NCBI GenBank assembly: GCA_948144175.1
Contig: CANXME010001988.1
Coordinates: 1-64,000 of the forward strand
Source of the DNA: Closterium sp. NIES-65
Taxonomy: Eukaryota; Streptophyta; Zygnematophyceae; Desmidiales; Closteriaceae
Length of the DNA stretch: 64,000 bases
Direction of reading: 5' to 3'
Shown here in pieces: positions 1,497 to 26,700 of this stretch. The position numbers and the translations under genes are program-made. The notes beneath the pieces were generated by a model, which saw only the letters and a program-made list of their open reading frames with translations, did no database searches and was not told where the DNA came from. The first letter of the stretch is position 1. The number at the start of each line of letters is the position of its first letter.

Positions 1497-1785
1497 CCAG
1501 CGTGAAGTCTGCAAGCACGACAGCCATGGCGGCCTGGAAGAGAGCGACCTTCTGAGCGGGAGTAATTGTTTCTGTCGTAGTCTGGGAGAAGCGCTAACAG
1601 AATCCCCCCCCCCCCCCCCCCCCCCGTCCCGCCACCGCAGCCGTAGCGCAATGTTAGTGATGCAAGGTAGATGGCCCATACCCGCTGCTTGTCGTTGCCG
1701 CTCAGTATCGTTGCATCGCTAGCTATGACGAGGGGGGCGATGATTTGGCCTGGTCCATACCTCTTCTCCAGCCATTTCTGCGCGC
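1497..1785 (-). pseudogene. Transposase core blocks around the IASDAT motif
   Basis: On the minus strand, about 1785-1640 reads AGAQKWLEKRYGPGQ, then IIAPLVIASDATILSG, then NDKQRVWAIYLASLTLRY. About 1585-1497 reads TPAQKVALFQAAMAVVLADF. The acidic residue in the SDAT motif corresponds to a predicted catalytic Asp in the KDZ superfamily (established for the family, matched here by eye). Between the blocks lies a C18-type homopolymer (about 1607-1625) that breaks the frame. It could sit in a short intron, since CAG precedes the second block, or it could be decay. Confidence 0.5.
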
Positions 1786-4115: not shown

Positions 4116-5095
4116 ATGCCTTGCAATATGATTAACCCGGCCAAGGAGAAGTACTGCGACGAGTATTTTGCAATTAAGGGTAGGTGGCCTGTTAACCGAG
4201 GGCCCATATGGCCTAGCGATACTCCATCCGATAAGCGCCCACGAAATACTACAGAGGTGGTTAGGGACTACCCTAAGATTGCCAGCGTGTGGCTGCAGAG
4301 CCGAATACTTGCGTCAAAGGCGCATCGGCGGTTTCTTAACGCCGGTGATGCTTGAGGAGAGCCTCGGGTGCCTTGCATCACATAGACGCAGCCCGGCGCA
4401 CAGTGCACGGGAGGGAGTCATCAAGGCAGTATGCGAATTCAGGGAGTCAAACGACCTAAGCTCGTGGAACGATATAGACAAGCTTTGCGTTGTCGCATTG
4501 TACAACGACGAACGGGACTTCCTAATGCGAGACCATTATATTGACTGTTCTATGGAGCTCGTTCCCAACTTCCTTGACATCAACTACGGTGCTACAGGGA
4601 TCGCGTCCTTGAGGGCCCGCGAGCGCCCTGCGGAACACTACCGGAAATACCTTATGGACTTCGCGATGAGTGAGGGCTGGGTGGTACGCATCATGAACCT
4701 TTCGTGTTCTGTATGTAATGTAATGGACATATAATTCTTGATTGTTCCTTACCATTCATTTCTGTCCTTGTGTGCAGGTCGAGCGAGGCATGTACGACAG
4801 AGAGTATGAACGAGATGCCTGGGTGGATTTTGAGCATTGTCGTCTACCGTGCAACACTTTGAACGAAACACCACACCTTGAGCATATAGGGGCGGACGAG
4901 GGAATGTGGGTGGACATACTGTCTCACGCTCTGGGGATGCGTGCATGGTGGGAACGACCTGGAGAAAACACAAGGCACTTGCGCTATGTCGAAGGGTGCC
5001 ACGACCTGGTTTATCCCTGGTATCATCGCAAGGGGGACGATGGTCCCCCAATAGTTCATCGCCTTGTGCCGCAGATGTTTGGCAAGTACGCGTAG
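4116..5095 (+). CDS. Two-exon gene of unknown family
   Basis: I do not recognise the product. The start frame opens MPCNMINPAKEKYCDEYF and stays open to 4355. The convincing coding frame then continues in another frame from about 4350 to 4680 (EESLGCLASHRR, WNDIDKLCVVALYNDERDF, HYRKYLMDFAMSEGW). That requires a frameshift or an unseen small intron near 4330-4360. A GT...CAG intron (4681-4777) joins the second exon 4778-5095 in phase 0: SEGW then VERGMYDREYERDAW, ending MFGKYA and TAG. The phase match supports the intron. The protein is polar and rich in Arg, Asp, Glu and His, with no signal peptide or membrane segment. It could be a lineage-specific host gene or an accessory gene of the neighbouring transposon. 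Confidence 0.5.
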
Positions 5096-5365
5096 CGGAT
5101 GTGCGTCGAAACACAATGCCATGCCGGGCAAAGAGATAAGCCCTTTTTGTTTGTGAGAAGCATATGCCTTATTTATGCAAACATGGTTTTTGCCTCTCTT
5201 GATATGAGATCATCATTATGGAAGTCTTTAAAAGGATAATAGTAACTGCTTAAATCAGAACATGGTCGTACATGAAATCTCAATGTTCTGACGGGTATCT
5301 GAGGTTCGTGTGAATTAGGCACTGGACGCGAGACCCATCGTCGTGGTCCGCCTACAACCCCTTTC
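5096..5365. other. Intergenic sequence left of copia copy 1
   Basis: AT-rich sequence follows the stop codon at 5095 and ends with the CTTTC target duplication of the next element. No gene or repeat is visible. Confidence 0.4.
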
Positions 5366-5496
5366 TGTCAGAACATTATAGCTTATGCTTTTGTGTAGGC
5401 TGTAGTGGGGTAGCCCATATGGGGTACAACCAAATTAGGGTTAGTACTTGTACCCAACTCGTTCATAGTGCATTCATTCTCGTTTCAGTTTTCTCA
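5366..5496 (+). repeat. 5' LTR of copia A copy 1
   Basis: 131 bp, TGTCAG...TTCTCA. It shares the family core TAGTGGGGTA with a GGGTACAACC-like stretch. The 3' LTR differs at about five positions. Confidence 0.9.
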
Positions 5497-5774
5497 TGGA
5501 ATCGAGCAGGTTCCCTCGTGGGAACTGTTCCTAGGGCCCACCGATTCGATTTTTTTTTCCTGCCCGGAGCGCGCTCAGCCCTTGCCCGAGTCGCGCTCCC
5601 CCATTCTCACTGTGTCGCGCCGCCCTAGCGGCTGTGTCGCGCCGCCCTTGACGGCACCGATCCGCCGCCCTAGCGGCCCTGTCGCCTACCCCGCGGCCCT
5701 CGAGCCGCCCTTCCCAGCCCCGATTCGCCGCCCTTTCGGCCCCGTCGCCTACATCGCGGCCCTCGTGCCGCCCT

Positions 5775-5910
5775 TCCCGACCCGGCCCCGCCCTTGCTGG
5801 CCCTGTCGCCTACCTGCGGCCCCGACGCCTACCTGCGGCCCCGTCGCCTACCTGCGGCCCCGTCGCCTACCTGCGGCCCCGTCGCCTCCTTGCGGCCCCG
5901 GCGCAAAAAA
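5775..5910 (+). repeat. GC-rich tandem repeat in the copia leader
   Basis: Units of about 18 bp (CTGCGGCCCCGTCGCCTA) are repeated several times, ending in a run of about 15 A. This is the copy-1 version of the variable GC-rich leader seen in every family A copy. Confidence 0.75.
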
Positions 5911-6019
5911 AAAAAAAAAGGTCCCCTACTACCGCCTCTTCCCCTACCGCACTCCGTCCCTCCCCCCGCCACCGCTCTTCCTTGTACCAGGTCCCCCCCA
6001 GGTAGACCCCCTCCCCCCT

Positions 6020-8963
6020 CAGGGTCCTGCCCCTTCAGGTGTGTCCCAGTAGACGCAGTCGAGCCTGTCGAGGTTACTGGTAACTCTGGTGCTGCTGAGG
6101 GTGCTGAGCCTGGGGGTGCTGACTCTGGGGGTGCTGAGCGTGTGGGTGCTGCGCCTGGGGGTGCTGAGCCTGCGGGTGCTACTACTGGGGGTGTTGAGCC
6201 TGGGGGTGCTGCGACTGGGGGTGTTGAGCCTGGGGGTGCTGAGCCTGGGGGTGCTATGCCTGGGGGTCCTGAGCCTGGGGGTGCTACGCCTGGAGGTGCT
6301 ACGCCTGGAGGTGCTGAGCCTGGAGGTGCGGAGCCTGAGGTGCGGCCTACTCGTGTGGCGTCTGGCGGTGCTGGGCCTGGAGGTGCTTCGGGTGCTTCGT
6401 CTCAACGGGAGCCCCTCTCTCCACAGGAGCTGCATGAGTGGTTTGCTCGGCGCTGGAGGCGTGCTGCTGGAGCTGGAGGTTCTCCAACTGCTGAGGGTGC
6501 TGGTGCCGCGGGTCCCGGAAGTGCTCGTGCTGGGTGTACTGGAGCTGCTGGGCCTGCGGGTGCGACTAGAGCTGGAGCTGCAGAGGGTGTTGGCGCTGAG
6601 GCTCCTGCTGTCGGTTCTGGAGGCGGTCCTGCTGGGGGTACTACTGGTGCTGCTGGAGGTACTGGAGCTGGAGGTGCTCCTGGCGCTGGTGCTGCCGCTG
6701 GGGGTGCTGGTGCTGTCCCTGCTATTTCTGAAGTCGCCGCGCAGCCTCGGCCGTACTTCGTTCCGCTCTTTCAGCAGGTTCTTGGTCTCCCGTCTTCTAC
6801 TGGTCCTCCTCCTCCCTTAGAGTGTCCACAGCCTGTTCCGTCACAATTACAGTTACACCTGTCCTCCCCATGTCTGCTCCTTCTCCCTACACTGGTCCTA
6901 CTGGAGGTCTTGCTGAGTGTCGTGAGCGTGCGTCTCGCCCTGCGTCGCCTGCCCGTGCTGCTCGCACTAGTGCTCGTGGTTCGCGTCAGCGTCCTCCTCC
7001 TTTCCTTGGCACGCACCGGATGTCTCTACGTCCGTCCACTGCTCCTTTGCGTGCCCCTCTGCCTTCTCCTCCTGAGTCCTCTCTTCCTGCTCTTGCCGAC
7101 CCGGAGTCGGACTCCCTTCGTGCTGCCAGTCCTACTGTCACGCGTCTCCTTACTACTGTCGTCACTGACCCTTCCTTTGAGTCCTGTGCTGCGTCTGCCC
7201 TAGTTGCTGAGCTCGTCGACTTTGCTGCTCGCTGTCGTCTAGAATACGCTGCTAGTCTTGTCGCTGAGTCTGAGTCTGTCTGTCCTCCGTCCGTCGGGGG
7301 TGAGTGTGCCCTTGGCACGGACGTCCTTGAGGACAGGCAGGAGGAGTTCTAGTGTTTGGCTGCTGCTTCACCTCATCTCGTGTCCGTACTGCTTACCCCT
7401 GAGGGAGACCCGGATGCACTTGACATCCCGACTCCGCGCTCTTACGCGGAGGCCATAGTGGGTCCCTACTCCTCTTAGTGGCAGGCAGCTATGGACACAG
7501 AGATGGCTTCCTTGAAGTCCACAGGCACCTACGTTGACGAGGTTCCCCCGCCTGGGGCGAACATCGTCACTGGCATGTGGATTTTCAGGGTGAAGCGGCT
7601 GCCAGGTTCTCCGCCTGTCTTCAAGGCGCGTTACGTGGCTCGTGACTTCAGTCAGCGGGAGGGAGTTGACTACTTTCAGACCTTCTCTCCCACCCTGAAG
7701 ATGACCACTCTTTGGGTACTGCTGCACATAGCTGCTCACCGCGACTACGAGCTCCACTCTCTTGACTTCAGCACTGCTTTCTTGCAGGGCAGCTTGCACG
7801 AGGAGATCTGGCTGCGCCGCCCACCTGGCTTCACTGGGTCTTTTCCTCCTGGCACCCAGTGGAGCCTCCGGCGGCCAGTCTACGGTCTCCGCCAAGCACC
7901 GCGTGAGTGTCACGACACACTGAGGACTACACTTGCGGCTCTTGGGTTTGCTCCCTCTACTGCGGACCCGTCGCTGTTTCTGCGCACCGACACTTCTTTG
8001 CCGCCGTTCTACATCCTCGTGTACGTCGACGACTTGGTCTTTGCCACAGCTGACACTGCTGGACTCGCCCACGTGAAGTCCGAGCTGCAAAAGAGACACA
8101 CGTGCACAGAACTGGGTGAACTGCGCAGCTACCTTGGCTCTCAGATCACCCGGGACAGAGCACGCCGCACCATTACCCTGACTCAGTCACACATGGTACA
8201 ACAGTTCCTTCAGCGCTTCGGCTTCACGTACTCCTCGCCTCAGGCCACTCCTCTGCCTACTCGCCACTCGCTCTCAGCTCTGCGTTCGGATGAGTCCGTA
8301 GAGTCGAGCGGCCCGTACCCAGAGCTTGTTGGCTGCCTCATGTACCTGATGACCTGCACTCGACCTGACCTTGCATACCCTCTTAGCATTCTCGCACGCT
8401 ATGTTGCTCCTGGGAGACACAGACCAGAGCATATGGCTACAGCGAAGAGGGTGTTGCGCTACTTGTGCAGTACGTCGGGCATGGGGCTTGTGCTTGGAGG
8501 TCAGAGTCCAGTGGTCCTCACTGGGCACGCAGAGGCTTCTTGGGCTGACGACCAGGCTACGCAGCGGTCGTCACAAGGTTACACCTTCAGCCTTGGTTCC
8601 GGCTCTGTTTCGTGGCGGGCTACCCGCTCGTCTTCTGTTCTCGGCTCCAGTTGTGAGGCTGAGATCTACGCCGGGGCCATGGCTGCACAGGAGCTTCGCT
8701 GGCTCACCTACCTGCTGACTGACCTCGGAGAGCCGCCTCGTTCTCCTCCAGTGCTGTACGTAGACAACAAGGCCATGCTGGCCTTGTGTCGAGAGCAGAG
8801 ACCGGAGCACAGAACGAAGCACATTGCTCTCCGCTACTTCCTTGCTCGTGAGCTGCAGCAGCGTGGTCAGCTGCGTCTTGCGTACGTGGCCTCTGAGGCC
8901 AACACGGCTGATATCTTCACCAAGGCGCTTGCGCCTTGTGATCATCAGCGCTTCTGTACTTAG
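6020..8963 (+). pseudogene. Copia pol remnant: linker, reverse transcriptase and RNase H
   Basis: Compared with the intact polyprotein, this covers the Gly/Ala-rich decapeptide region (about 6080-6350), the serine/proline linker, RT with FSTAFLQGSLHEEIW and YVDDLVFA (about 8020) and RNase H with CEAEIYAGAMA and VDNKAMLAL. The longest open part is 7491-8963. It is broken by a one-base loss near 6050 and by TAG stops at 7350-7352, 7476-7478 and 8961-8963, each where the intact element has CAG. GHADASWADD in RNase H has become GHAEASWADD, so a conserved acidic position is conservatively changed. No active enzyme is expected. Confidence 0.85.
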
Positions 8964-9219
8964 CTGGGTCTTGTGCCTGCCTTGCCTCACTTGCTCACCT
9001 CTTGACCTTGCTTGTACTGTTACATATATATATACACCTGCTCTTGCTTGTCTAGCCTTTTATATATATATGTACTCCTGCATGTGAACTGGCCTTGTGG
9101 CCTTGACCTTGTGCTCGGAATGTGTGGTGACTTTGTGATCCACCCTGAGCTTGATTTGCTCTGCTTTGCTTGACTGGTCTTGTGACCCCTTGTACTCCCC
9201 CACTTCTCCTATGGGGGTG

Positions 9220-9350
9220 TGTTAGAACATTATAGATTATGCTTTTGTGTAGGCTGTAGTGGGGTAGCCCATATGGGGTACAACCCAAATAGGGTTAGTA
9301 CTTGTACCCAACTCTTTCATAGTGCATTCATTCTCGTTTCAGTTTTCTCA
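9220..9350 (+). repeat. 3' LTR of copia A copy 1
   Basis: 131 bp, TGTTAG...TTCTCA, followed directly by the target duplication CTTTC. Confidence 0.9.
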
Positions 9351-10804: not shown

Positions 10805-11563
10805 AATTTCGTTTGAGTCGCTACTCGCACGCCTGCGAGCACAAGATCTTGAGTTGCTGGACATGAGGAGCAGGCTGGCGTCGGTCACGAAGGAAAAGGA
10901 ACACGAAGACCACAACGGAAGCAGCCCTAAGTGGCCCAAGACGGCACACGCAAGGGGAGAACGTGAGGCACCCTCGACCGTGTCAGTAGATCTGCACTGT
11001 GGATGCCCGATTGATCCTGGAAAGGGTTACAGGCGCGTTCGCCTGGGGGGTTATGGGCGCACTGACCCGCTACTGAAATAAGCCCTTTTATCCCAATGGT
11101 CTAGTGGTTGGGATTCTGACATGGTATCAGAGCAGTCTCGGGTTCGTTTCCCGGTGTATGCACATGTAGGCCGTTGCCGCTGTGCTTAGTCCTGGGCCTC
11201 CCAGTGTGGGGGGGTGTCAGTAGATCTGCACTGTGGATGCCCGATTGATCCTAGAGAGGGTTACAGGCGCGTTCGCCTGGGGGGTTATGGGCGCACTGAC
11301 CCGCTACTGAAATAAGCCCTTTTATCCCAATGGTCTAGTGGTTGGGATTCTGACAGACCGTACCCAACGAATTCCTGTCTTACCCGGAGAATAACGACGT
11401 ATTCCCTTTTGCACACTTCTCCCCGTTCGTGCACGAGGCAATGCAGGTGCACTTCCAGGCACGCTACGCATGTCATATGCGGATGAACGATCGCATGAGT
11501 GGGTGGGCGAGGACGCTACGTGGTGCGGACCTTGCGCTCCCTCATGTTGACAAAGGGTGGCAG
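10805..11563 (+). pseudogene. Exon of the unknown gene split by a TRIM
   Basis: The left half ends ...GEREAPST and the right half resumes VPNEFLSYPENND. Removing 10981-11355 and one GACCG copy restores a continuous frame. The exon ends at a good donor, CAG/GTGAGT (11563/11564). The left half begins with a short Leu-rich coiled-coil stretch. With the element present the frame reads into it and meets a stop near 11081. Confidence 0.6.
10981..11355 (+). mobile_element. TRIM (miniature LTR retrotransposon), complete copy 1
   Basis: Two 141-bp terminal direct repeats (10981-11121 and 11215-11355), each TGTCAG...CTGACA, flank a 93-bp interior. The interior begins with TGGTATCAGAGC, the exact complement expected of the plant initiator tRNA-Met 3' end, and finishes with a run of seven G as polypurine tract. 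The 5-bp target duplication is GACCG (10976-10980 and 11356-11360). The two repeats differ at about two positions. There is no coding capacity. An A-box-like TGGTCTAGTGG near the end of the left repeat is followed by a B-box region in the interior, here damaged (GGTTCGTTTCC). Confidence 0.93.
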
Positions 11564-12090
11564 GTGAGTAAACATGCACTTGCTCATGCGTGTGCAATAT
11601 GGTCCCCATTTGTTTTAACGCTATAGCGCAGTGACGTGTCCGTATCGGCCACTTGCATAACTACCTAACCAAAGCGCGGTGACCCTTAAAGCGCGATGTT
11701 CCTTTTCTTCTATAATCACCCGTGTGTTATGGGAGAAGGTAGACATTAGTGTGGCACATATCCGTGACGACCTTCCGGACGCTGAGATGTTTTGGCTGGA
11801 CGACGCTCTAGTGGAACGCGCGATGGCTCACTCGATGGAGTTGACCGAGAAGGAAGACTTGTCGAGGCTACATCTGGTTCTAGAGCTCGACAAGAAGAGG
11901 AGCGGGTGCTTCACGTCTGCGATGCAGAAATTTTGCTCAGACATACTTCCGCATTCCCAACGGATCGAAGTATACGAAGCTCCCCACGACACGAATTGCA
12001 CTACCGGCGGCTCCAGATTCGACTGTGGTCAAACCAAAGGACAATGAGGAATTCACTGAGAAATATGCCGCCAGTGAGTAATGGTTGTAT

Positions 12091-13172
12091 TGTCGGAAAC
12101 CTCCTTGCCCTCTCCCGGCTAGCTCACTGCCCACCCTGCTACCCTTGTTCCTGCCCACACATCCTTCCCCTCATCCTCGTTCCACCTGCCCCATCTCTGC
12201 TCATATTGTCCCTTGACGCTCTCCCATCACCCTTGCCTTGTCTTCAACGACTCCCCCCCCCCTTTTCTCCTTTCTCTGTATGGTTCTGCTTCTGCTACCC
12301 CACTTTCTGCTTACCCTTATCTTTGTTCATTTCCTTTCTGCGACCGCGGTCGCGCCTGCGGCCCCTGCGCTCCCTCCGATCCAGTCGGCGCGTTGCCTCC
12401 GCCGCCTGCGCTTCCGGTCTGAGCACCTCCCCTGGGGCCGGTTGCTCCCTCACTGGGCCCAGTCTGGCCTTCTACATCTCCGCCTCCCGGCGGCAGATTA
12501 TTCTCCCGCTGATTCCCGTCTCCTCCCATCATCCTCTCGTCCTGTCCTTGCGTTGCTCTGACTACTTCTATCCACCTTCCTGACCGCAATCGCATTCGGA
12601 CTGCGTGATTGTACTGTATGCCCTTCCCCTAATCCATCAGACTGCAGATATGGCTTCGCTAAGAGACTGCTTATCTTGAGAAGAATTCACAGAAAATTGC
12701 GAAAACAATCACGCAGTGGCAGTCCCATGGCCCAGGAACCTCTAATATTGCACCCACCCTAGCCTAGCTAAGCATGGCTACCAACAGATGAGTGCTAGCA
12801 GCCGAGCTTCGCCACCCTTGCAGTTACCCTGCCTTCTTCCAGCTGGCGGGTGTGACTTCCAGCTCCCCCTGGACTCGGTGTCTGCACACAAGCAAAAACA
12901 AACAAACAAACACATGCATCCCATCAAACCCCATTCCCCCCTCCCGCCACGTAAGCTCGCCAACCCTTCTCCCAGTCAGCCACAGGTTCGTCCCAACCTT
13001 TACCCACTGCCTACCAATGCCGAGCTGCCCTCCACCTCCTGCTATCGCTTCTACACCCCGTTATCCACTTCCTCGACTATATACAAATGTACACATTGTT
13101 CCTCCTTGCCTCAATTACAGCCCCTCCCTTACTGTCAGCGTTCTTTTAGGATTTCCCTCAAGAACTCTGACA
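12091..13172 (-). repeat. Deleted tandem copy (segments B+A) of the gypsy element
   Basis: 12091-about 12334 repeats 13175-about 13417 (3' region) almost exactly, and about 12338-13172 repeats about 19550-20381 (5' region plus gag start). The deletion joint near 12335-12340 fuses gag codon 86 or so to the 3' untranslated region. If a canonical LTR exists it could be hidden here, since the unit begins TGTCGG and ends CTGACA as a TG...CA repeat would. Confidence 0.75.
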
Positions 13173-13373
13173 GCTGTCGGAAACCTCCTTGCCCTCTCCC
13201 GGCTAGCTCACTGCCCACCCTGCTACCCTTGTTCCTGCCCACACATCCTTCCCCTCATCCTCGTTCCACCTGCCCCATCTCTGCTCATATTGTCCCTTGA
13301 CGCTCTCCCATCACCCTTGCCTTGTCTTCAACGACTCCCCCCCCCCCTTTTCTCCTTTCTCTGTATCGTTCTG

Positions 13374-16300
13374 CTACCCCACTTTCTGCTTACCCTTATC
13401 TTTGTTCATTTCCTTCTCAGCCCCTTCCTGCCCCCTCCCGTGACGCATCGCCGCCGCCCTCGCACGCGTCATGGGACCAGAGGGGCTTCCCTTGCCCTTC
13501 TCCGAGCGAATCCTCGCCACATTGGTCACGTGATCGGACACCTGCTTGCCCTTGCCATCCTCCAGTATGATCACCCCCGATGGCTTGACTTCCTTGACTG
13601 CCCACCGTTGCTGTGATAGCCCCACATCCAGGGCGTGCTGCCGCTGCCGCCTCAGGTACACCTCCTCCCCTTCCTGCATCCCTGCTTCCTTCTTCCTACC
13701 CTTTATCTCTTGCCGCTGCTTGTACCTCTCAATGTCCCGCAGCTGAGCGACGTGCAGATTCTCCATGGCTGCGGGCAGCAGCCGCCGTAGGTACGCTGCT
13801 CGCGCATCGGCTACTGCGACCCATTTTTCTGCCGATCCTGTGGTCACCACGTCCAGGAGGAGCTTTGGTGCCCCCACGGGCATCACTGGCTCCTTGCCAA
13901 ACAGCAGGTAATACGGCGACACGTCCTTGAGTGCTGCTTGCTTGCTAAATCGGTATCCAGCCATAACCCAGCAGAGCCTTTTGTCCCAATCCCGCTTATG
14001 CTCCTCACCGTAAGCCCTTAACCCTCTTTTCACCGTCTGCACCAGCCGCTCGGTCAACCCATCGCTCTGTGGATGATAACGTGACGTGCAGCGATGCCTG
14101 ATCCCCGTTGCCCTGAGCAGCTCATCGAACGCTCCTTTGAACTCTGTGCCTTGGTCCGTCAGCACCTCCCCGCATGCCCCCAGACGCGTGATCACCATCT
14201 CCTCAAACGCTTCTGCCACCGCCTCTGCCGTTTTGTGCACTAAGGGTTTGGCTTCCGCCCATTTGCTCACGTGTTCCACCATCAGCAGTATGTAACGTCT
14301 TCCTTTCGTGCTGAGTGGAAGCTCCCCCGCGATGTCAAGCGACCACCTATAGCCCAAGCTCACCACCGGCAACGGTTGTAGCTCTGCCTTCTCCCGTTCC
14401 AGCACCGCCCTGTTCCGGCCGCATGCCTCGCATTTCCATACCCAGTCCTTAACCTGTTTGCGCAGGCCTGCCCACCACCATCCGGTTTGCACCAGCTGCT
14501 GCGTTCTTAGTGGCCCGTAATGCCCCAGCTTCTCGTGTACTTCTTTGATGATGCCTTCCCTCTCCTCTGGTGCGGGCACGTGCTTCCATCCTTCTCCTGT
14601 CCTCAACTGCACTTGCCCCTTGAACCAGCGGTAAAACTCCCCTCGCGCTCTTACTCTAGTTGTCACCGCTCCTGCCTCTGTTGTTGCCCCCTGAATCCAT
14701 GCTAGGGCTGCCTTATCTTCCCATATGTCTGCAGGTCCGCCTCGCCCTTCTCCCCACTGCCCCCCTTGGTCTGCTTCCTTCGCCAGCGCCATTAGGCACG
14801 CTGAGGGCTGCATCACCGGCGGGTTCCTCGAGAGCCCGTCAACGTGCTGCATGGTTTTCCCCGGCCTATGCCTAATCTCAAAGTCGTACTCTTGGAGCTT
14901 CATTGCCCACCGCGCGTTCCTGCCCGTCAAATCCGACGTCTGCATGAGCCACAGCAGGGGTTGGTGATCCGTCACCAGGGTAAACTTCCTCCCGTGTAGG
15001 TACACCCGAAAGTGCTTAACTGCCCACACTACCGCTAACCCCTCTCCCTCGTACAATGAGTAGTTGCTCTCCGCTGCATTGCAGCTGCGGCTTGCGAAGG
15101 CCACTACCTTCTCCACCTCCCCCTTCATCTGAGCCAGGACTGCACCCATGCCCACACTGCTCCAGTCAGTGTAGAGCACGTAAGGCAGATCAGCTCTGGG
15201 TAGCTCCAGCACTGCTCCATTCTTTACGGCGCCCATGAGGTCCTGCACGGCCCTCTCATGGTCTGGTCCCCACTCCCACTTGCAATCCTCCCTCAATAGT
15301 TGATTCAGCGCTTGCGCTCGGCTGCTGAAGTTTGGCACAAACTTCCTGTAATAGTTGAGGAAGCCCAGCAATGCGCGCAGGGCACTCCTGTCCTTCGGTG
15401 TTGACACGCGATCCAGCACTTCTACTTTCGCCTTCTGTATGCCGATCCTCCCCCCTGCCACTTCGAATCCTAGGTACGCCACCGTGCTTTGGCCAAATTT
15501 GCACTTCCCTGGGTGACAGGTCATCCCGGCGTTCTGTATCGCACTCAGGACCGCCTCGACATCCTTCACATGCGCGCTGCTGTCCCTGCTGAACACGATC
15601 ACGTCGTCGATATAGCAGGCGGCGTTCGGCACGTCGCGCAGAATCTGATCCATAATGCGCTGGAATTCCGGCGAGGCCGACTTCAACCCAAATGGCAGCG
15701 TGTTCCACTCGTATTGCCCATCCGGCCCGTGGAAGGCTGTCTTCTTCCGGTCAGCTTCTACGATGGGTATCTGGTTGAACCCCTGCCGCAGATCCAGGGT
15801 GGAGAAGACCACCGCTGCCGCTAACTTGTCGAACAGCTCATCCGGCGTGGGCGTTTGGTACCGTTTCATCACCGTCACCTTATTGAGCCCGCGGTAATCC
15901 CCGCACATTCGCTTCGACAGCACTTGCCCTGTGAGGTCTGTTCTAGCAGCTACTACCGTGGCTGCTGCGTATTCCAAGTTGGACTTCCGTATGAACCCGG
16001 CTTCCCTCAGCTCTTGGCATTTCTCTGTGCAGATCTGTAATTCTTCTGCTGTCATCCTCCGCCGCCGCTGGTACACTGGAATCTCAGTGGTTAACTCGAT
16101 GCTGACTTCCGCCATGTTGCACCTGCCCACTTCCTTCAGTGTGTATGCGAACGCCTGCCGATATTTTGCAAGCACCTTCCTTAGCTCTGCCGCGTCCACT
16201 TTGGTGACGCCATCTCCGATCTCCCACTGATGCTCTGCTGCTGCTGGTGCCGCTGGCTCCTTCTCCCTCGCCCCCTGCGCTGACCCTTCCGCCTTAGCTG

Positions 16301-18491
16301 GCTCCGTCGGTTGGCCCTGTGCCTTCTCCTGCGACCGCTCTCCCTGTGTCTTCGTCTCTGCTCCTACCTCCTTTGTTGCCGCCATCAGGGCGAATTCTCC
16401 TGATCCGAACTCACGCTCATAGCTCTCCCTTCTCCGCTGCCTCTCGATGGCCTCCTCCACCCAGTCCAAGTCCTCTCGCTTCTTGTTCACGGCTGCCTCT
16501 TCCCGAGCGGCTGGCAGCTCGATCTGGGTCGGTTCTGCATACACCGCTGGTACTTCGTCCTCCTCTTCCCACGGATACACCCACCTCTTCTCCAGCGGAT
16601 GCCCCAACTGGTGCTGGACCATATCATTCGCGTACATTTCTCCCAGCATGGCCCTAGCGAGGGCCTCTTTAGCAACCGAGCGCTCCGTGGGTGGCTGCAC
16701 TGCTGCCGCCTTGTCTCGTTTTCGCTCCCACCAAAGCTGTGAGTGATACATCCGGATAGTCGCCACCAGCCAGTGCATGACGTTCAGATCCATGGCTCTC
16801 CCCAGAGCACGCCTCCTCGCCGTTTCCGTCACCTCTGGATGTGCGGTCGCATCTTCCATGAAACCCATGGCCAATTCCCGCTCTAGCGCTGTCGGTTCCT
16901 GCCATTCTCCCGCTGTACAGTCGTACACCATTCCTGGCCCCGGGTCTTCCCCGTGCATCTCAAAGGCCGCTGCGCCCTCGTATGACACAAACGTGGGCCA
17001 AGCCCGCCGCGGCTTCCCTACCTCGTTGCACGCGAACTGCGTCGGATGATCCGGCTGTGTCACCGGTGCGGGCATCCTCCCTACTTCAAGGATGTCTTCC
17101 ACCAACAAGGGCACGGGGCGTTCCATCAGCGACAAGCGGTACTGCAGGGCTGCATTCGTTACTCCATTCGTCCAGTAGCGGCGCACCCTATGCGCCCGGC
17201 TGTCCGTCTGCGCCCCATCCACTACAATCCCCGGGCCCAGTACCCCCGTCACTTCCTCATGTGCCACTTGGATCTGCTCCCGCACATCCCCCTCCATGTC
17301 CACGTTCTCCACGATGTAGAGCACTTCCCCCTGCACCCGTTTGAGGATTCGCAGCACTCGCACTAACTCCCTGAAAAGGCTGCTCCTTTCGTCCCTCATG
17401 CCTCTGCCTGCCCCTGCCCGCGAATATCCTTGACACTCCCATCCCGCAATGACCACATCAATCTTCCCCCATCCCCTTATGGTCTGCTCCGTCACCATCC
17501 GTATGTCGCAGGCCTGAGTGTGCGTGCTTTGCTCCAACGCCAAGGCCGTCAGCTGGTGCGGGTATCTCTTTTGCAGCTGCTCCGCGTGATTCCATGCCAT
17601 CTTCACCGACTCCATGTCTGATTCCACCAGTATCCACTTCTCCACGTAGGCCCCAGCCTTCAGGAGTGCTGCTAAGCCCGTGCCGATGCCGCCAAAGAGC
17701 TCCAATACTACTGTGGGACCCAGTAGCTTCTTAGTGTCCGTGCATATCAGCCTTAGGTCTCCGTCGTCCCCGTCAATCCCCTCCGCTGGTGTACGCATCC
17801 CCGCAGTTTGCTGCCAGGAGGGGACTCCTAGCTCTTCCCGCAATTCTGCTTCGGTGCACTGGTAAGCTTCCCTCGGCTCTCTCCTCACGAAGCGCACTGG
17901 TAACGTGCCAATGGGGCCGTCCTCCTTCCAATAGTGCACGCGATACTGCATCTTCTCCTCCCACATGCAGATTGTCGAGCCGATGCCAAAGAGGTACTCC
18001 ACCCCTATGAGCAGATCGAAGTCCAACGAGTCCGACACTCCGCAGTGCACCCTCAACGTGCACTCCTCTGGTGTACCCGGATTCAGCACCAAGGCCATGG
18101 ACTGCCGAGTTTTTGGCATCCACTTCGCCTCTCCTCCATCCGCCGTCATTAGCAGGTAGCCCTCCGGTATCAGTCGCTCAGCCTTGTCCAGTTGCAGCTT
18201 CTCCGCCAATTGCTTGCCGATTAGTACATGTGCTGCTCCCGTGTCCACTATGGCTCTCTGGGCTCGTAGCCCCCCAATCGTGATTGCCCCGGGTTCGATC
18301 GTCAGCACCGTGGCCTGACAGATCATGCGATCGCGCGGATGCCGAAATGTCGCTCCTTCTCTGTCCTCGGTCGCGCTTGCCCGCCTCCTCGGGCCATCTT
18401 CCCGCCTTTCGTCCTCCCTGAAGAGCTGTCTGCGCGCGCCGCTCCTTAGGCCTAGCTCCTCTCGCTCCCGTGCGGGTTGCGCCATTAGCAT
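13374..18491 (-). CDS. pol: Gypsy Pol: protease, cytosine-5 methyltransferase, RT, RNase H, integrase
   Basis: A 1,705-residue open frame. Order of domains: aspartic protease (IVDTGAAHVL, residues 81-90; LLIGVEYLFG later); cytosine-5 DNA methyltransferase (about 261-580); RT (about 790-1000, FSTLDLRQGFNQIPI and YIDDVIVFS near 958); RNase H (LYTDWSSVGMGAVLAQ, about 1105; HVDGLSR); integrase (zinc site with GHYGPLRTQ and CEACGRNR, catalytic LDIAGE, LTDQGTEF, HPQSDGLTE, about 1324-1490). The tail is basic with no chromodomain that I can see. Domain order PR-RT-RH-IN is Ty3/gypsy. The methyltransferase between PR and RT is the oddity. No internal stop is present, so it may be functional. The first ATG is only a convention, because the frame is open back to the gag TAG. 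Confidence 0.93.
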   Translation of the reverse strand: MLMAQPAREREELGLRSGARRQLFREDERREDGPRRRASATEDREGATFRHPRDRMICQATVLTIEPGAITIGGLRAQRAIVDTGAAHVLIGKQLAEKLQLDKAERLIPEGYLLMTADGGEAKWMPKTRQSMALVLNPGTPEECTLRVHCGVSDSLDFDLLIGVEYLFGIGSTICMWEEKMQYRVHYWKEDGPIGTLPVRFVRREPREAYQCTEAELREELGVPSWQQTAGMRTPAEGIDGDDGDLRLICTDTKKLLGPTVVLELFGGIGTGLAALLKAGAYVEKWILVESDMESVKMAWNHAEQLQKRYPHQLTALALEQSTHTQACDIRMVTEQTIRGWGKIDVVIAGWECQGYSRAGAGRGMRDERSSLFRELVRVLRILKRVQGEVLYIVENVDMEGDVREQIQVAHEEVTGVLGPGIVVDGAQTDSRAHRVRRYWTNGVTNAALQYRLSLMERPVPLLVEDILEVGRMPAPVTQPDHPTQFACNEVGKPRRAWPTFVSYEGAAAFEMHGEDPGPGMVYDCTAGEWQEPTALERELAMGFMEDATAHPEVTETARRRALGRAMDLNVMHWLVATIRMYHSQLWWERKRDKAAAVQPPTERSVAKEALARAMLGEMYANDMVQHQLGHPLEKRWVYPWEEEDEVPAVYAEPTQIELPAAREEAAVNKKREDLDWVEEAIERQRRRESYEREFGSGEFALMAATKEVGAETKTQGERSQEKAQGQPTEPAKAEGSAQGAREKEPAAPAAAEHQWEIGDGVTKVDAAELRKVLAKYRQAFAYTLKEVGRCNMAEVSIELTTEIPVYQRRRRMTAEELQICTEKCQELREAGFIRKSNLEYAAATVVAARTDLTGQVLSKRMCGDYRGLNKVTVMKRYQTPTPDELFDKLAAAVVFSTLDLRQGFNQIPIVEADRKKTAFHGPDGQYEWNTLPFGLKSASPEFQRIMDQILRDVPNAACYIDDVIVFSRDSSAHVKDVEAVLSAIQNAGMTCHPGKCKFGQSTVAYLGFEVAGGRIGIQKAKVEVLDRVSTPKDRSALRALLGFLNYYRKFVPNFSSRAQALNQLLREDCKWEWGPDHERAVQDLMGAVKNGAVLELPRADLPYVLYTDWSSVGMGAVLAQMKGEVEKVVAFASRSCNAAESNYSLYEGEGLAVVWAVKHFRVYLHGRKFTLVTDHQPLLWLMQTSDLTGRNARWAMKLQEYDFEIRHRPGKTMQHVDGLSRNPPVMQPSACLMALAKEADQGGQWGEGRGGPADIWEDKAALAWIQGATTEAGAVTTRVRARGEFYRWFKGQVQLRTGEGWKHVPAPEEREGIIKEVHEKLGHYGPLRTQQLVQTGWWWAGLRKQVKDWVWKCEACGRNRAVLEREKAELQPLPVVSLGYRWSLDIAGELPLSTKGRRYILLMVEHVSKWAEAKPLVHKTAEAVAEAFEEMVITRLGACGEVLTDQGTEFKGAFDELLRATGIRHRCTSRYHPQSDGLTERLVQTVKRGLRAYGEEHKRDWDKRLCWVMAGYRFSKQAALKDVSPYYLLFGKEPVMPVGAPKLLLDVVTTGSAEKWVAVADARAAYLRRLLPAAMENLHVAQLRDIERYKQRQEIKGRKKEAGMQEGEEVYLRRQRQHALDVGLSQQRWAVKEVKPSGVIILEDGKGKQVSDHVTNVARIRSEKGKGSPSGPMTRARAAAMRHGRGQEGAEKEMNKDKGKQKVG
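16752..17711 (-). other. Cytosine-5 DNA methyltransferase domain inside gypsy Pol
   Basis: Residues about 261-580 of Pol. Motif I (SAM binding) is LELFGGIGTGLAALLKAG. Motif IV is GWECQGYSRAGAGRGMRDE, with the catalytic Cys at residue 353 but Glu replacing the usual Pro of the PC pair. Motif VI is IVENVDM. Motif VIII is VVDGAQTDSRAHRVRRYW. Motifs IX/X end in ERELAMGFMED and RRALGRAMDLNVMHWL. The FxGIGTGL and HRxRxxWxN forms are closer to DRM/DNMT3-type enzymes than to DNMT1 or CMT types (my judgement from motifs). It would methylate cytosine, possibly element or host DNA, with specificity unknown. Confidence 0.88.
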
Positions 18492-18521
18492 GAACTCTGG
18501 CTCTTCCGAGTCTTCCTCTTC

Positions 18522-19808
18522 CTATTCCACCATCGCCGGCTGCTTCTCCTCCACTACAACTAGTTCTGCTAATTGCGCCCGCAGCCGCGCCATGACGGCT
18601 TGCCGATCTTCACCTCCCTCCGCTCCTCGCCTGTCCCTGCGGTTTGCGTAGCAATCTGCTTCCCGATGCCCCTTCCTTCCACAGCGTGCGCACACTGGGG
18701 CCCCCGGACAGTCCCGTCGCAAATGCTCGCGACTCCCGCAGAGCGAACAGGCTACTGGGTTCCGGCAGTCCCTGCGCAGATGTCCCGGCTGCCCACAGTT
18801 ATGGCAACGTCGGGTCTCTTCCCTTCCCCTTTCCTCCACCTCCTGATACGCGGACGCGGCTGCCCATGCCGGCCGTCTCCTCTCGGATCCCCGATCCACC
18901 GTTCTCTCGACCTCGTAGAGCCTGCGTCCCATCTCCACTCGTTTGACGATTTCGTACGCCTCCTTCAGCGTCGCTTCCGCGCCCAGCTCGAACACCCGCA
19001 CTTCCACGTCCTGCCGCAGTGGTTGACTGAGGCCATGGACGAACTTCCCGATCAGTCGTCCCTGGTCTCCACAGTTCATGTCCTCCCCCAATTCCACCAG
19101 CCTCCCATAGTATGCCAGCAGCGACTCTCCCTCTCGCCTTCTGAACGACCTGAACTCGACCACTCGCTCCGCCGTTTGCGCCGGAAATTGCTCTCGCAAC
19201 ATTGCTAGGAACCTCGCCGTAGGATCCCTTTCGCCCGGGGCCCGCCCTACCGCCCACTCCAGCAGCTCCTTGCGAGATATGCGGTAATAGGTCTCAGCCT
19301 CCCCGGTCAGCGTATTCGCTAGCCCTCGGAAGAACTCCTCTGGGTCCAGCTGATCCTTCGCCCATCGCACTTGCAGATTTTCCAACTGCATGATGTAGTT
19401 CTTCAGGCTCGGACCTCGTCGAGCATCGCCGGAGAATCTTTCCGGCACTTCTATCTTCGGCAGCTGAGTGTACTTCCAGCGCTGCATCATCGTCTCGTCT
19501 TCCGTGCCTTGCCACGAGGCGCTACGCTGATATCCCACCGGTCCACCCATTTGCGACCGCGGTCGCGCCTGCGGCCCCTGCGCTCCCTCCGATCCAGTCG
19601 GCGCGTTGCCTCCGCTGCCTGTGCTTCCGGTCTGAGCACCTCCCCTGGGGCCGGTTGCTCCCTCACTGGGCCCAGTCTGGCCTTCTACATCTCCGCCTCC
19701 CGGCGGCAGATTATTCTCCCGCTGATTCCCATCTCCTCCCATCATCCTCTCGTCCTGTCCTTGCGTTGCTCTGACTACTTCTATCCACCTTCCTGACCGC
19801 AATCGCAT
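18522..19808 (-). CDS. gag: Gypsy Gag with three zinc knuckles
   Basis: A 428-residue Gag. The first about 90 residues are Gly/Pro/Gln-rich and low in complexity. The middle (about 130-300) is a Ty3-type capsid/retrotrans_gag region (PKIEVPERFSGDARRG, EEFFRGLANTLTGEAETYY, FRRREGESLLAYYGRLVEL). The C-terminal third has three CCHC knuckles: CHNCGQPGHLRRDC, CSLCGSREHLRRDC and CARCGRKGHREADC. It should assemble the particle and bind the RNA. It ends at an in-frame TAG (18522-18524) directly upstream of pol in the same frame, so it is either a readthrough type or a once-continuous gag-pol. The ATG lies shortly after the 5' segment and is shared with the deleted copy. Confidence 0.92.
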   Translation of the reverse strand: MRLRSGRWIEVVRATQGQDERMMGGDGNQRENNLPPGGGDVEGQTGPSEGATGPRGGAQTGSTGSGGNAPTGSEGAQGPQARPRSQMGGPVGYQRSASWQGTEDETMMQRWKYTQLPKIEVPERFSGDARRGPSLKNYIMQLENLQVRWAKDQLDPEEFFRGLANTLTGEAETYYRISRKELLEWAVGRAPGERDPTARFLAMLREQFPAQTAERVVEFRSFRRREGESLLAYYGRLVELGEDMNCGDQGRLIGKFVHGLSQPLRQDVEVRVFELGAEATLKEAYEIVKRVEMGRRLYEVERTVDRGSERRRPAWAAASAYQEVEERGREETRRCHNCGQPGHLRRDCRNPVACSLCGSREHLRRDCPGAPVCARCGRKGHREADCYANRRDRRGAEGGEDRQAVMARLRAQLAELVVVEEKQPAMVE

Positions 19809-20885
19809 TCGGACTGCGTGATTGTACTGTATGCCCTTCCCCTAATCCATCAGACTGCAGATATGGCTTCGCTAAGAGACTGCTTATCTTGAGAAGAATT
19901 CACAGTAAATTGCGAAAACAATCACGCAGTGGCAGTCCCATGGCCCAGGAACCTCTAATATTGCACCCACCCTAGCCTAGCTAAGCATGGCTACCAACAG
20001 ATGAGTGCTAGCAGCCGAGCTTCGCCACCCTTGCAGTTACCCTGCCTTCTTCCAGCTGGCGGGTGTGACTTCCAGCTCCCCCTGGACTCGGTGTCTGCAC
20101 ACAAGCAAAAACAAACAAACACATGCATCCCATCAAACCCCATTCCCCCCTCCCGCCACGTAAGCTCGCCAACCCTTCTCCCAGTCAGCCACAGGTTCGT
20201 CCCAACCTTTACCCACTGCCTACCAATGCCGAGCTGCCCTCCACCTCCTGCTATCGCTTCTACACCCCGTTATCCACTTCCTCGACTATATACAAATGTA
20301 CACATTGTTCCTCCTTGCCTCAATTACAGCCCCTCCCTTACTGTCAGCGTTCTTTTAGGATTTCCCTCAAGAACTCTGACAGTATAAGTCGATTGATATG
20401 CGATATTTTGCGTGTACACTTTATTACGCGTGTCGCATGTGCGCATGACCCTTTTCTTACGAACTGCTGACATGGCAATGCGCCGACGAAACGCCAGAAC
20501 TGCCTTTCTCTTCGGACGCCTTTGACCGCGGGACATATGCGGCGTACAAGTCATCCGCAACGCCCCCGCAAGTTGTGAAGTTGTACGCCATCGTGTTCTG
20601 GCTATTCGGGGTAAGAGTTCAATGTTATAATCGGTGCACGTAATTCAGAGTGTGAGAAGCCTATCACTTGCCTCTCGCATCTTTGTGTCACGGACGGAGC
20701 AACCTCTGATTAAGAAGACAGTGCTCAACCGGAGCGGCCCCTAGAACGGAACCACTGTTGAGTGGTATCATCAACGCCTGAAGGCTTGGGCGAAGCACGC
20801 CATCATCGAGCGCACGCCGGAGCACGGACCCTGGTGGAAAGCAAAACGCAAGGCGTGGGCGTTTAAGCGCCATGCCCTCGTCCTC

Positions 20886-23385: not shown

Positions 23386-23741
23386 GGGTTGCCGACGCTG
23401 AGAAAAGTAGAACGAGAATGAATTGACTAAGGAATGGAAGTGATACAAATATGCAACCCTAGAAATGTGTACCCCATATAGGCTACCCCACTATAGCCTA
23501 CACAATATTAAAATTTGACACACCCCCATAGGCAAAGTGGGGGAGAACAAGGGGTCACAAGACCAGTCAAGCAAAGCAGACAAAGCTCAGGGTGGATCAC
23601 AACGTCACCACACAGTCCGAGCACAAGGTCAAGGCCACAAGGCCAGTTCACATGCAGGAGTACACATATATATATAAGGCTAAACAAGCAAGAGCAGATA
23701 TATATATATATATATATATACATGAAAGGGTACAAGCAAGG

Positions 23742-26700
23742 TCAAGTGGTGAGCAGGTGAGGCAAGACAGGCACAAGACCCAGCTGAGTGCAGAAGCGCT
23801 GATGATCACAAGGCGGAAGTGCCTTGGTGAAAACATCAGCAGTGTTGGCCTCAGAGGCCACGTACGCAAGTCGCAACTGACCACGCTGCTGCAACTCACG
23901 AGCAAGAAAGTAGCGGAGAGCAATGTGCTTCGTTCTGTGCTCCAGGCACTGCTCCCGACACAAGGCCAGCATGGCCTTGTTGTCTACATACAGCACTGGA
24001 GGAGAACGAGGCGCCTCTCCTAGGTCAGTCAGCAAGTAGGTGAGCCAGCGAAGCTCCTGTGAAGCCATGGCCCCGGCGTAGATCTCAGCCTCACAACTGG
24101 AGCCAAGAACAGAAGACGAGCGAGTAGCCCGCCACGAAACAGAGCCGGAACCAAGACTGAAGGTGTAACCCTGTGACGACCGCTGCGTAGCCTGGTCGTC
24201 AGCCCAAGAAGCGTCCGCGTGCCCAGTGAGGACCACTGGACTCCGCCCTCCAAGCACTAGCCCCATGCCCGACGTACTGCACAAGTAGCGCAACACCCTC
24301 TTCGCTGCAGCCATGTGCTCTGGTCTGTGTCTCCCAGGAGCAACATAGCGTGCAAGAATGCTAAGAGGGAATGCGAGGTCAGGTCGTGTGCAGGTCATCA
24401 GGTACATGAGGCAGCCAACAAGCTCTGGGTACGGGCCACTCGACTCTACGGACTCATCCTAAGGCAGAGCTGAGAGCGAGTGGCGAGTAGACAGAGGAGT
24501 GGCCTGAGGCGAGGAGTACGTGAAGCCGAAGCGCTGAAGGACCTGCTGCACCATGTGTGACTGAGTCAAGGTAATGGTGCGGCGTGCTCTGTCCCGGGTG
24601 ATCTGCAAGCCAAGGTAGCTGCGCAGTTCACCCAGGTCTGTGCACGTGTGTCTCTTCTGCAGCTCGGACTTCACGTGGGCGAGTCCAGCAGTGTCAGCTG
24701 TGGCAAAGACCAAGTCGTCGACGTACACGAGGATGTAGAACGGCGGCAGAGAGGTGTCGGTGCGCAGAAACAACGACGGGTCAGCAGTAGAGGGAGCAAA
24801 CCCAAGAGCCGCAAGCGTAGTCCTCAGTGTGTCGTGCCACTCACGCGGTGCCTGGTGGAGACCGTAGACTGGTTGTCGGATGCTCCACTGGGTGCCAGGA
24901 GGGAAAGTCCCAGTGAAGCCAGGTGGACGGCGCAGCCAGATCTCCTCGTGCAGGCTACCCTGAAGGAATGTAGTGCTGAAGTCAAGGGAGTGAAGCTCGT
25001 AGTCACGCTGAGCGGCTATGTGCAGCAGCACCCGAAGAGTGGTCATCTTCGGGGTGGGAGAGAAGGTCTGAAAGTAGTCAACTCCCTGCCGCTAACTGAA
25101 GCCACGAGCCACGTACCGCGGCTTGAAGACAGGTGGAGAGCCCGGCGGCCGCTTCACCCTGAAGATCCACATGCCACTGACGATGTTCGCCCCAGGAGGA
25201 GGAACCGCGTCAACGTAGGTGTCTGTGGACTTCTAGGAAGCCATCTCTGCATCCATAGCTGCCTGCCACTGAGAGGAGTAGGGACCCTCTATCGCCTCCG
25301 CGTAAGCAGCAGCCAGACACTGGAACTCCTCCTGTCTGTCCTCAAGGACGTCCGTGCCAAGAGCACACTCACCCCCGACGGACGGAGGACAGACACACAC
25401 AGACTCAGCAACTCATCTAGCAGCGTAGTCTAGACGACAGCGAGCAGCAAAGTCGACGAGCTCAGCAACAAGAGCAGACGCAGCAGTGGACTCAAAAGAG
25501 GGGTCAGTGACGACAGTAGCAAGGAGACGCGTGACGGTAGGACTGGCAGCACGAAGAGAGTCCGACTCTGGGTCGGCAAGAGCAGGAAGAGAGGACTCAG
25601 GAGGAGAAGGCAAAGGGACACGCAGAGGAGCAGTGGACGGACGTAGAGACATCCGGTGCATGCCAGGGACAGGAGGAGGACGCTGACGCGAACCGCGACC
25701 ACAAGCGCAAGCAGCACGAATAGGCGACGCGGGACGAGACGCAGGCTCACGACACTCAGCAAGACCTCCAGTGGGACCAGTGTAGGGAGAAGGAGCAGGC
25801 AGTGGGGAGGCCGGCGGTAACTGTGACTGTGACTAGACAGGCGGTGGACACTCTAAGGGAGGAGGAAGACCAAGAACCTGCTGAAGGAGCGGAACAAAGT
25901 ACGGCTGAGGCCGCGCGGCGACTCCAGACACAGCAGGGACAGCACCAGCACCCCCAGTGGCAGCACCAACGCCAACAGCACCTCCAGCTCCAGTACCTCC
26001 AGCAGCACCAGCAGCACCCGCAGCAGGACCGCCGCTAGGACTGACAGCAGTAGCTCCAGCGCCAACACCCTCAGCAGCTCCGACTCCAGTCGCACTCGCA
26101 GGCCCAGCAGCTCCAGCACTCCCAGGGCGAACACCTCCGAGATCGGCTGCACCAGAACCCTCAGCAGCCGAAGAAGCACCTGCTCCAGCAGTACGCCTCC
26201 AGCGCCGGGCAAACCACTCGCGCAGCTCCTGTGGAGAGAGCGGCTCCCGCCGAGACGAAGCACCCGAAGAACCTCAAGGCCCAGCACCACCAGACGCCAC
26301 ACGGGTAGGTCCAGCGGCCGCTGGCTCCGCACCACCAAGCTCACTAGCTCCAGACGCAGCACCCCCAGGCTCAACACCCCCAGTCGTAGCACCCCCGGGC
26401 TCAGCACCCCCAGTCGCAGTACCCCCAGGCTCAGCACCCCCAGTCGTAGCACCCCTAGGCTCAGTACCCCCAGTCGCAGCACCCCCAGACTCAGCACCCC
26501 CAGGCTCAGCACCCACGCGCGCAGCACCCACAGAGTCAGCACCCCCAGGCTCAGCACCCGCAGCAGTACCAGAGTCACCAGCAACCTCGACCGGCTCGAC
26601 TGCGTCTACCTGGGACAAACCTGAAGAGGCAGGACCCAAAGGGGGGAGGGGGTCTACCGGGGGGGGACCTGGCACAAGGAAGTGCGGTGGTGGGGGGAGG

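Follow-up and report, generated by a model that had tools for sequence, protein, structure and literature searches.

Cytosine methylation is one of the main weapons deployed against transposons, and a transposon that carries a methylating enzyme of its own inverts the usual picture. Gypsy elements that combine a Dnmt3-type cytosine methyltransferase (MTase) with DIRS-like repeats were published in 2018 as KnitGypsy-Dnmt3 from Klebsormidium nitens (de Mendoza et al. 2018, PMC5890265; statements on this and other cited papers refer to the consulted part of each text). In that account, the Pol open reading frame (ORF) of the gypsy element includes a Dnmt3-type MTase that is not rearranged, the element is intronless and its repeats are arranged in DIRS style; its MTase is under purifying selection (Ka/Ks < 0.2), and the case is interpreted as an independent acquisition by a single algal lineage. 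Here, we describe an element with the same combination, a Dnmt3-like MTase inside a gypsy Pol ORF together with DIRS-like repeats, in a stretch of 64,000 nucleotides from Closterium sp. NIES-65 (contig CANXME010001988.1, positions 1 to 64,000; "the window" below). The element appears to belong to the lineage that includes KnitGypsy-Dnmt3, although its host is Closterium, a member of the Zygnematophyceae, and not K. nitens. MTase-bearing gypsy elements are thus already known as a kind, and the window copy is a further member. What deserves following up is how broad the family is, and that split repeats are united here with integrase-type ends; the consulted part of the 2018 account (PMC5890265) describes neither exact ends nor a target duplication nor a wider green-plant clade.

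The other described systems differ more. SymbioDIRS-Dnmt3 and SymbioLINE-Dnmt from Symbiodinium are likewise retrotransposon-borne cytosine MTases, the former with the DIRS repeat layout (PMC5890265), but they belong to a DIRS element with a tyrosine recombinase and to a LINE (long interspersed nuclear element), whereas the window element is a gypsy with a DDE integrase. These published cases bear out what the sequence-only reading of this DNA, made without database searches, had stated about captures in a charophyte alga and in dinoflagellates. Retrotransposon DNMT3s in streptophytes and dinoflagellates are also mentioned in PMC12344493, which cites the 2018 paper, while the consulted parts of PMC11244446 and PMC6453930 add nothing further on gypsy copies. 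Among the literature titles listed, with subscription literature mostly outside the coverage, there was no report of an MTase-bearing gypsy from Closterium, Marchantia or volvocines besides the 2018 paper. The sequence-only reading had not noted that the ORF lies on the minus strand, that the direct repeats are split, that the target site is duplicated or that the family is so broad.

Both ends of the element could be located, and its extent, repeats and flanks are as follows:

12091-20381, minus strand: whole retroelement, 8,291 bp, 5'-TG...CA-3'
20382-20385, no strand: target-site duplication ATAC on the 5' side of the element, the same 4-mer on both flanks
12087-12090, no strand: target-site duplication ATAC on the 3' side of the element, the same 4-mer on both flanks
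19552-20381, minus strand: repeat A1, 5' terminal, 99.0% identical to A2 (4 substitutions and a 4-bp gap)
12339-13172, minus strand: repeat A2, 99.0% identical to A1
13175-13415, minus strand: repeat B1, 97.2% identical to B2
12091-12336, minus strand: repeat B2, 3' terminal, 97.2% identical to B1
13169-13178, no strand: B1/A2 junction, palindrome GACAGCTGTC, with the element ends joined; the 12-mer around it also occurs in the related contig L022 (see below)

Block A comprises 835 bp and block B about 245 bp, and along the element strand they are arranged as A1-coding-B1-A2-B2, that is, as split direct repeats instead of the two identical long terminal repeats (LTRs) that flank the coding part of Ty3/gypsy elements. 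The gag gene starts inside A1, and the last 14 codons of pol, stop included, lie inside B1. The outer ends read TGTCAG... (5') and ...CCGACA (3') with ATAC on either flank, giving the TG...CA termini and short target-site duplication of a Ty3/gypsy element. Since the flanks match over this 4-mer and mismatch when 3, 5, 6 or 7 bp are compared, the duplication is 4 bp long. At the point where B1 and A2 meet, both element ends stand back to back as GACA-GC-TGTC. The insertion is young, of Ty3/gypsy type, and has an open pol ORF.

The A1-coding-B1-A2-B2 layout is that of DIRS/PAT-type elements (PMC5890265), yet the ends and the 4-bp duplication of the window element fit a DDE integrase, not a tyrosine recombinase. 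A tyrosine-recombinase element of the DIRS kind was set aside in view of the rve integrase and the ATAC duplication, and no tyrosine recombinase domain was found in the Pfam scan of pol at a cut-off of 0.1. DIRS elements are not known to make a target-site duplication. An ordinary LTR element was also set aside, because the B part is absent after A1 while B1 is present and near-identical to B2. With A1-coding-B1-A2-B2 in place of two LTRs, the element is therefore gypsy by its protein and not by its repeat layout. A tblastn search of the window found no second copy of pol, and the sole other gag match was the part inside A2. There was no Rfam match in 12000-20600, and no tRNA gene was found in the window.

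The coding part, all of it on the minus strand, has the following features:

18522-19808, minus strand: gag ORF, 428 amino acids, with zinc knuckles, starting inside A1, ending in TAG and in frame with pol
13374-18491, minus strand: pol ORF, 1705 amino acids (ORF translation and Pfam)
18174-18284, minus strand: aspartic protease stretch, DTGA at residue 83 (Asp_protease_2, E=2.2e-5)
16746-17723, minus strand: cytosine-5 MTase domain, residues 257-582, with E352-C353 (motif IV), E395 (VI) and R435/R437 (VIII)
15459-15914, minus strand: reverse transcriptase (RT), YIDD at residue 960 (RVT_1, E=3.8e-28)
14886-15272, minus strand: RNase H (Pfam)
14409-14570, minus strand: integrase H2C2 zinc-binding domain (Pfam)
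14070-14351, minus strand: integrase core rve (E=1.6e-11), with D1386 and D1446 inside and E1481 just past the Pfam match

In residues of pol, the Pfam matches span 70-106 (Asp_protease_2), 860-1011 (RVT_1), 1074-1202 (RNase H), 1308-1361 (H2C2) and 1381-1474 (rve), which is the protease-RT-RNase H-integrase order of Ty3/gypsy elements with a DDE core, and the best match among solved structures in the PDB is Ty3 Gag-Pol (8.5e-83). The pol interval contains 40 stops on the plus strand, the coding strand being the minus. Shuffling the element 100 times under a first-order Markov model gave longest stop-free frames of 261 codons on average and 468 at most, so the pol ORF is not due to chance. Gag and pol share one frame; between them lie a single TAG (18522-18524) and, ahead of the pol ATG, ten sense codons. 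In the relative P0001, gag and pol are fused in a single ORF. The TAG may be either a readthrough signal or a defect of this copy.

The claim of the sequence-only reading that a cytosine-5 MTase sits between the protease and RT of a gypsy polyprotein holds by domain order and by a significant match to Pfam DNA_methylase (PF00145), with E=1.1e-8 and 35.4 bits against a curated cut-off of 22. The match covers pol residues 315-398 and is partial (profile positions 43-112 of 324). A profile built from nine family members, the window included, spans residues 257-582, and an alignment with 28 homologues confirmed that the MTase motifs follow one another in canonical order within the one frame. The segments that we take to be motifs I, IV, VI, VIII, IX and X include ELFGGIGTGL (I), AGWECQ (IV), ENVD (VI), AHRVRRYW (VIII) and GRAMD (X). 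Of the residues typical of an active cytosine-5 MTase, the catalytic Cys (C353), the Glu of the ENV motif (E395) and the Arg residues of motif VIII (R435/R437) are present, while the Pro before the Cys is replaced by E352. The NCBIfam dcm model TIGR00675 also matched (6.3e-11), but was set aside as the MTase family, since its 42.5 bits fall below the curated cut-off of 100.65.

Among solved enzymes, the nearest to the window domain alone is DNMT3A (4.9e-11). Compared with the PDB, the family profile matched DNMT3 best (3.3e-20), followed by HhaI (6.8e-11), entry 4onj (4e-10), DRM2 (2.9e-8), the DNMT2 type (1e-7) and DNMT1 (0.75). The chain in 4onj is named only "DNA methyltransferase" in the PDB; we take it to be a plant DRM. 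The profile scores support a DNMT3-like MTase. It shares with animal DNMT3A/B the linear motif order, but no PWWP or ADD match was found in the window pol by Pfam, there is an extra stretch before motif IV, and the catalytic pair is EC instead of PC. The domain is 31-56% identical to eight other family domains. It is also matched by PHROG 116 (6.1e-19). In the phage collection, 250 records matched the domain, none of the best 30 listed over 80% of its length. In viral contigs, the window MTase yielded three pattern stretches, none confirmed as a related locus, and no related locus was found there for P0079 (two stretches, none confirmed) or for P0147. Searches with a family alignment (alignment A1, not to be confused with repeat A1) gave 17 loci in viral contigs and 55 in genome contigs; among the best 30 ORFs of these loci on the family profile, that of L022 scored 377 bits and the next 64, compared to 72 for DNMT3A pieces.

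The EC pair of motif IV (E352, C353) was correctly noted in the sequence-only reading, but its suggestion that the pair might be special to this copy did not hold. An MTase match was found in 110 rows, counting the window and L022. The motif IV column is present in 80 of these, where E (57 rows), P (18), S (three) or C (two) stands before the position of the catalytic Cys. These rows include fragments and near-copies and are not independent events. Since E is found in 57 of the 80 rows, EC characterizes much of the family rather than the window copy alone, and the idea that EC is the sign of a dead copy was set aside because the pair is common to most of the family. The Cys is kept in 77 of the 80 rows, and Cys, the motif VI Glu and the second motif VIII Arg together in 68, gaps tolerated. 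P precedes the Cys in L022 and in the Marchantia protein P0096, among others. Because both domain architectures described below include P rows as well as E rows, the change from P to E looks tolerated rather than disabling. Outside element proteins, no E before the Cys was found among the best 30 alignment-A1 ORFs, which all have P (the search pattern allowed E or P).

Relatives were collected by protein searches with the MTase region, the MTase alignment and the RT-RNase H region, which scored the top 8,000, 7,999 and 7,994 candidates by number of shared words, respectively. The MTase region gave 28 proteins, 15 of them named Closterium, and the MTase alignment 37, with 29 from Closterium and one from K. 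nitens. Both MTase-based searches select for the domain; within the proteins seen, the prospect raised in the sequence-only reading that other copies consistently lack it is not borne out (15 of 28 and 29 of 37 from Closterium). The RT-RNase H search gave 292 proteins at E<=1e-60, and the best 120 included Marchantia polymorpha, Haematococcus lacustris, Pleodorina starrii and Tetrabaena socialis. Unnamed environmental sequences were also found. The closest named relatives (among the best 120 of the 292) include P0066 from Closterium Yama58-4, 86% identical in RT-RNase H; P0051 from Closterium Naga37s-1 is 88% identical over 284 residues. The sole K. nitens protein found, P0049, has 36% identity, and its motif IV stretch is missing.

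Two architectures were seen. In type I, the MTase precedes the RT (21 carriers in the RT tree, among them the window, Closterium and Marchantia), and in type II it follows the RNase H (38 carriers, including Haematococcus and volvocines). The position before the RT, which the sequence-only reading thought might be peculiar to this copy, is thus found in many relatives. Several type II relatives have a C-terminal PHD finger, while no PHD match was found in the window pol or in the type I relatives P0009, P0010 and P0014. Presence in Closterium, Marchantia, Haematococcus, Pleodorina, Tetrabaena and environmental relatives suggests a long-lived green-plant family, and such a family would make the reason for keeping the enzyme testable by comparing carriers with non-carriers.

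Three relatives have features of their own. The M. polymorpha protein P0096 (Mp_2g26090) has a decayed MTase and RT, with, by eye, motif I gone and the RT motif altered, and a PC motif IV; it shows the lineage in a land plant. P0026 (type II) has a C5-MTase and a PHD finger and, at residues 1958-2000, a weak match to a D12-class N6-adenine MTase (E=0.0037, under the curated cut-off). P0028 has a PHD finger, PCIF1_WW, a PPCQ-type C5-MTase and, by eye, a possible RNase H-like tail; its MTase relatives are P0040, P0043, P0053 and P0054, an environmental group near the element MTases.

The RT tree was built from 119 of 169 proteins, the window included; the others were without RT or RNase H or outside 300-450 residues. 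The MTase tree contained the 72 proteins that cover 230 or more profile positions (with pieces longer than about 420 residues dropped) and four phage enzymes. Both trees were quick searches with Shimodaira-Hasegawa-like approximate likelihood ratio test (SH-aLRT) support alone, and the program gave a long-branch warning. All 59 MTase carriers were placed in one 82-row clade of the RT tree (SH-aLRT 99%), and the 38 type II carriers fell inside a 40-row group (98%) that also contains two rows without an MTase. Among the other 23 rows of the clade, 19 start at most 192 residues before the RT, so that an upstream MTase would not be visible, and four have no match (P0071, P0088, P0107 and P0115). 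P0107 has 449 residues between its protease and RT, and P0071 has 722 before its RT, in both cases without an MTase, and in P0112 and P0113, two of the 19 short rows, there is none between RNase H and integrase either. Loss or absence of the MTase therefore does occur. The sample was drawn with the window RT and MTase, and the share of carriers is no census.

In the MTase tree, the type II domains form one group (99%). With the tree left free, the type I domains of P0014, P0073, P0084, P0089 and P0096 fall with type II (95%), as do those of the non-gypsy-like P0028, P0040, P0043 and P0053 (95%). Constraining type I to be one group gave a better tree, which was not rejected by the approximately unbiased (AU) test (p-AU 0.74). 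P0049 groups with the element MTases as against the four phage enzymes, on a long branch. RT and MTase distances were compared by a Mantel test on the 44 elements with at least 280 positions. The correlation was r=0.58 (0 of 2000 permutations) for all 44 and r=0.91 (0 of 2000) for the 14 of type I. These values argue firmly that RT and MTase have been inherited together within the sampled type I elements. Common inheritance across both types is plausible, and so is one old acquisition, though not proven.

One further relative was found as DNA. L022, one of the 55 genome-contig loci, is a contig of 9,285 bp that was assigned to a cyanobacterial metagenome-assembled genome (uncultured Synechococcales), in which it is presumably a eukaryotic contamination. 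The element occupies 15-6635 and encodes a whole family MTase (41% identity). ORF1 consists of gag (by eye), protease and MTase, and ORF2 of RT, RNase H, integrase and a C-terminal PHD finger. The contig ends overlap by 127 identical bases, as for a repeated element assembled as a circle; L022 is a single unit, and its repeat layout is not visible in the contig. ORF2 is 93% identical to P0079, which suggests that many of the short clade proteins are ORF2 products with the MTase in ORF1. The palindrome GACAGCTGTC occurs once only in L022, 3' of ORF2 (1 of 200 L022 shuffles matched), and this 10-mer occurs once in the window as well (at least once in 12 of 100 window shuffles). Window and L022 are identical over 12 bases at the junction, and BLAST found no continuous similarity between them around it. 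The likeness carries weight because the palindrome is the same and its place corresponds in both, downstream of the coding part and ahead of gag.

Taken as a whole, the recent Ty3/gypsy insertion in the window, apparently of the KnitGypsy-Dnmt3 lineage, has a DNMT3-like MTase that would methylate the element's own new DNA, an integrase that would insert the product and a B1-A2 block that would serve in copying. We would give this account an even chance of being correct. An RNA whose start lies within A1 and whose end lies within A2 or B2 would lack the outer parts of A and B, which the internal B1-A2 block could restore during reverse transcription. The DDE integrase would insert a product whose ends appear back to back as GACA-GC-TGTC at B1/A2. 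Because it is made as part of Pol, the MTase is expected beside the RT in the particle, and it might methylate the CGs of the new element DNA there or shortly after insertion. A copy methylated in this way would resemble host DNA, or would soon be tolerated and maintained. CG methylation of the element's own new DNA is the likeliest role, given that the MTase lies within Pol, that in yeast the SymbioDIRS-Dnmt3 enzymes carry out de novo CG methylation and that methylation of the element's own cDNA was proposed in the same paper (PMC5890265). The repeat copies bear a trace that fits deamination of methylated CpG in this insertion, weak as this signal is: of five substitutions in 1,070 aligned positions, three are CpG transitions, whereas 9% of positions lie in CpG. 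It is the only observation to bear on the roles suggested in the sequence-only reading, in which the element might silence competitors, mark its own copies or recruit methylation by the host.

As for the history, the boldest reading is a DNA-methylating gypsy lineage of the same age as green plants, with one acquisition of a DNMT3-like MTase before the streptophyte/chlorophyte split (or a later spread between the two); we rate this at somewhat less than even. The enzyme would have persisted since then in two domain orders, in elements with a DDE integrase, target duplication, DIRS-like repeats and a conserved palindromic junction. If true, this implies a mode of reverse transcription that ordinary LTR elements do not use, and the split repeats with integrase-type ends thus pose a second testable puzzle, that of the copying mode.

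A number of observations weigh against these views. Five substitutions are few, and the naive p=0.007 for the CpG transitions disregards a general excess of transitions; host methylation would equally yield such changes, and CpG is no more depleted in the element (observed/expected ratio 0.81) than in the window (0.76). The KnitGypsy-Dnmt3 enzyme was inactive in yeast (PMC5890265), a result that is inconclusive according to its authors because human DNMT3B was inactive too. Motif IV of the window has E where P is usual before the catalytic Cys, and the Cys itself is lost in 3 of the 80 rows. With a TAG between gag and pol, the window copy may be unable to make Gag-Pol. The junction 12-mer alone has a BLAST E of 0.07, and another short match, at an unrelated place, has 0.006. 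Within type II, the RT-MTase correlation is weak (n=30, r=0.17, 96 of 2000 permutations). On the family profile, the scores of four DNMT3-like phage enzymes (58-88 bits) bracket that of DNMT3A pieces (72), and for one of the four the best PDB match is also DNMT3, with HhaI nearly as good. The DNMT3-like assignment holds, but since the phage enzymes score about equally, an origin from a host DNMT3 is not demonstrated, and we set it aside as a settled point.

These points leave room for MTases having been captured several times, separately in two kinds of gypsy, from DNMT3-like or phage-like genes, a history that we consider possible but doubtful. The different places of the domain, before the RT in type I and after the RNase H in type II, would follow naturally from it, as would the weak type II correlation and the position of five type I domains and the non-gypsy-like group with type II in the free MTase tree (95%); the K. 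nitens case is also taken as an independent acquisition in the 2018 paper (PMC5890265). However, in the RT tree the two types share one clade that excludes the other sampled gypsy RTs (99%), type I monophyly is compatible with the MTase data (the tree holding it was the better one), and E before the Cys is found in both types. The notion of a mere passenger, a one-off fusion in the window copy without a role, is prompted by the single copy seen as DNA from this genome, but dozens of related proteins with the domain and its conserved motifs make it highly improbable.

Among rivals to self-methylation, it is unlikely, in our view, that the domain no longer methylates DNA and that the E marks another task, such as RNA methylation, nucleic-acid binding or a structural part in Gag-Pol. 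The frequent replacement of P beside the catalytic Cys and the inconclusive yeast result for KnitGypsy-Dnmt3 (PMC5890265) would agree with such a change of task, but the joint retention of Cys, Glu and Arg in most rows, and the presence of P and E in both architectures, speak for a tolerated substitution. Less likely still is an action in trans, in which the MTase would act on host chromatin or silence rival elements instead of methylating the element's own new DNA. The PHD finger, which often serves in chromatin binding, is present in several type II relatives and in L022 ORF2, and the MTase of L022, made from ORF1 with gag and protease and apart from the RT, could be produced in larger amount. 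The window pol and the three type I relatives lack a PHD match, however, and an MTase in one ORF with RT and integrase favors work inside the particle, as self-methylation would have it.

The remainder of the window contains other repeats. Copia-type ORFs (RVT_2 and/or integrase) are found at 7491-8963 (plus strand), 35695-37539 (minus), 45182-51115 (plus) and 51559-53001 (minus), and the 1977-residue ORF at 45182 has gag_pre-integrs, rve, SH3_retrovirus and RVT_2 domains. The retroelement is enclosed by inverted repeat arms at 8747-9222 and 23518-24000, in three pieces that are 87-95% complementary and 14.3-14.7 kb apart. A dispersed repeat with a 142-bp unit occurs in both orientations at 10980-11355, 32064-32441, 41808-42022 and 62669-63016, and a tandem array of about 59 copies of a 20-bp unit occupies 61488-62667.

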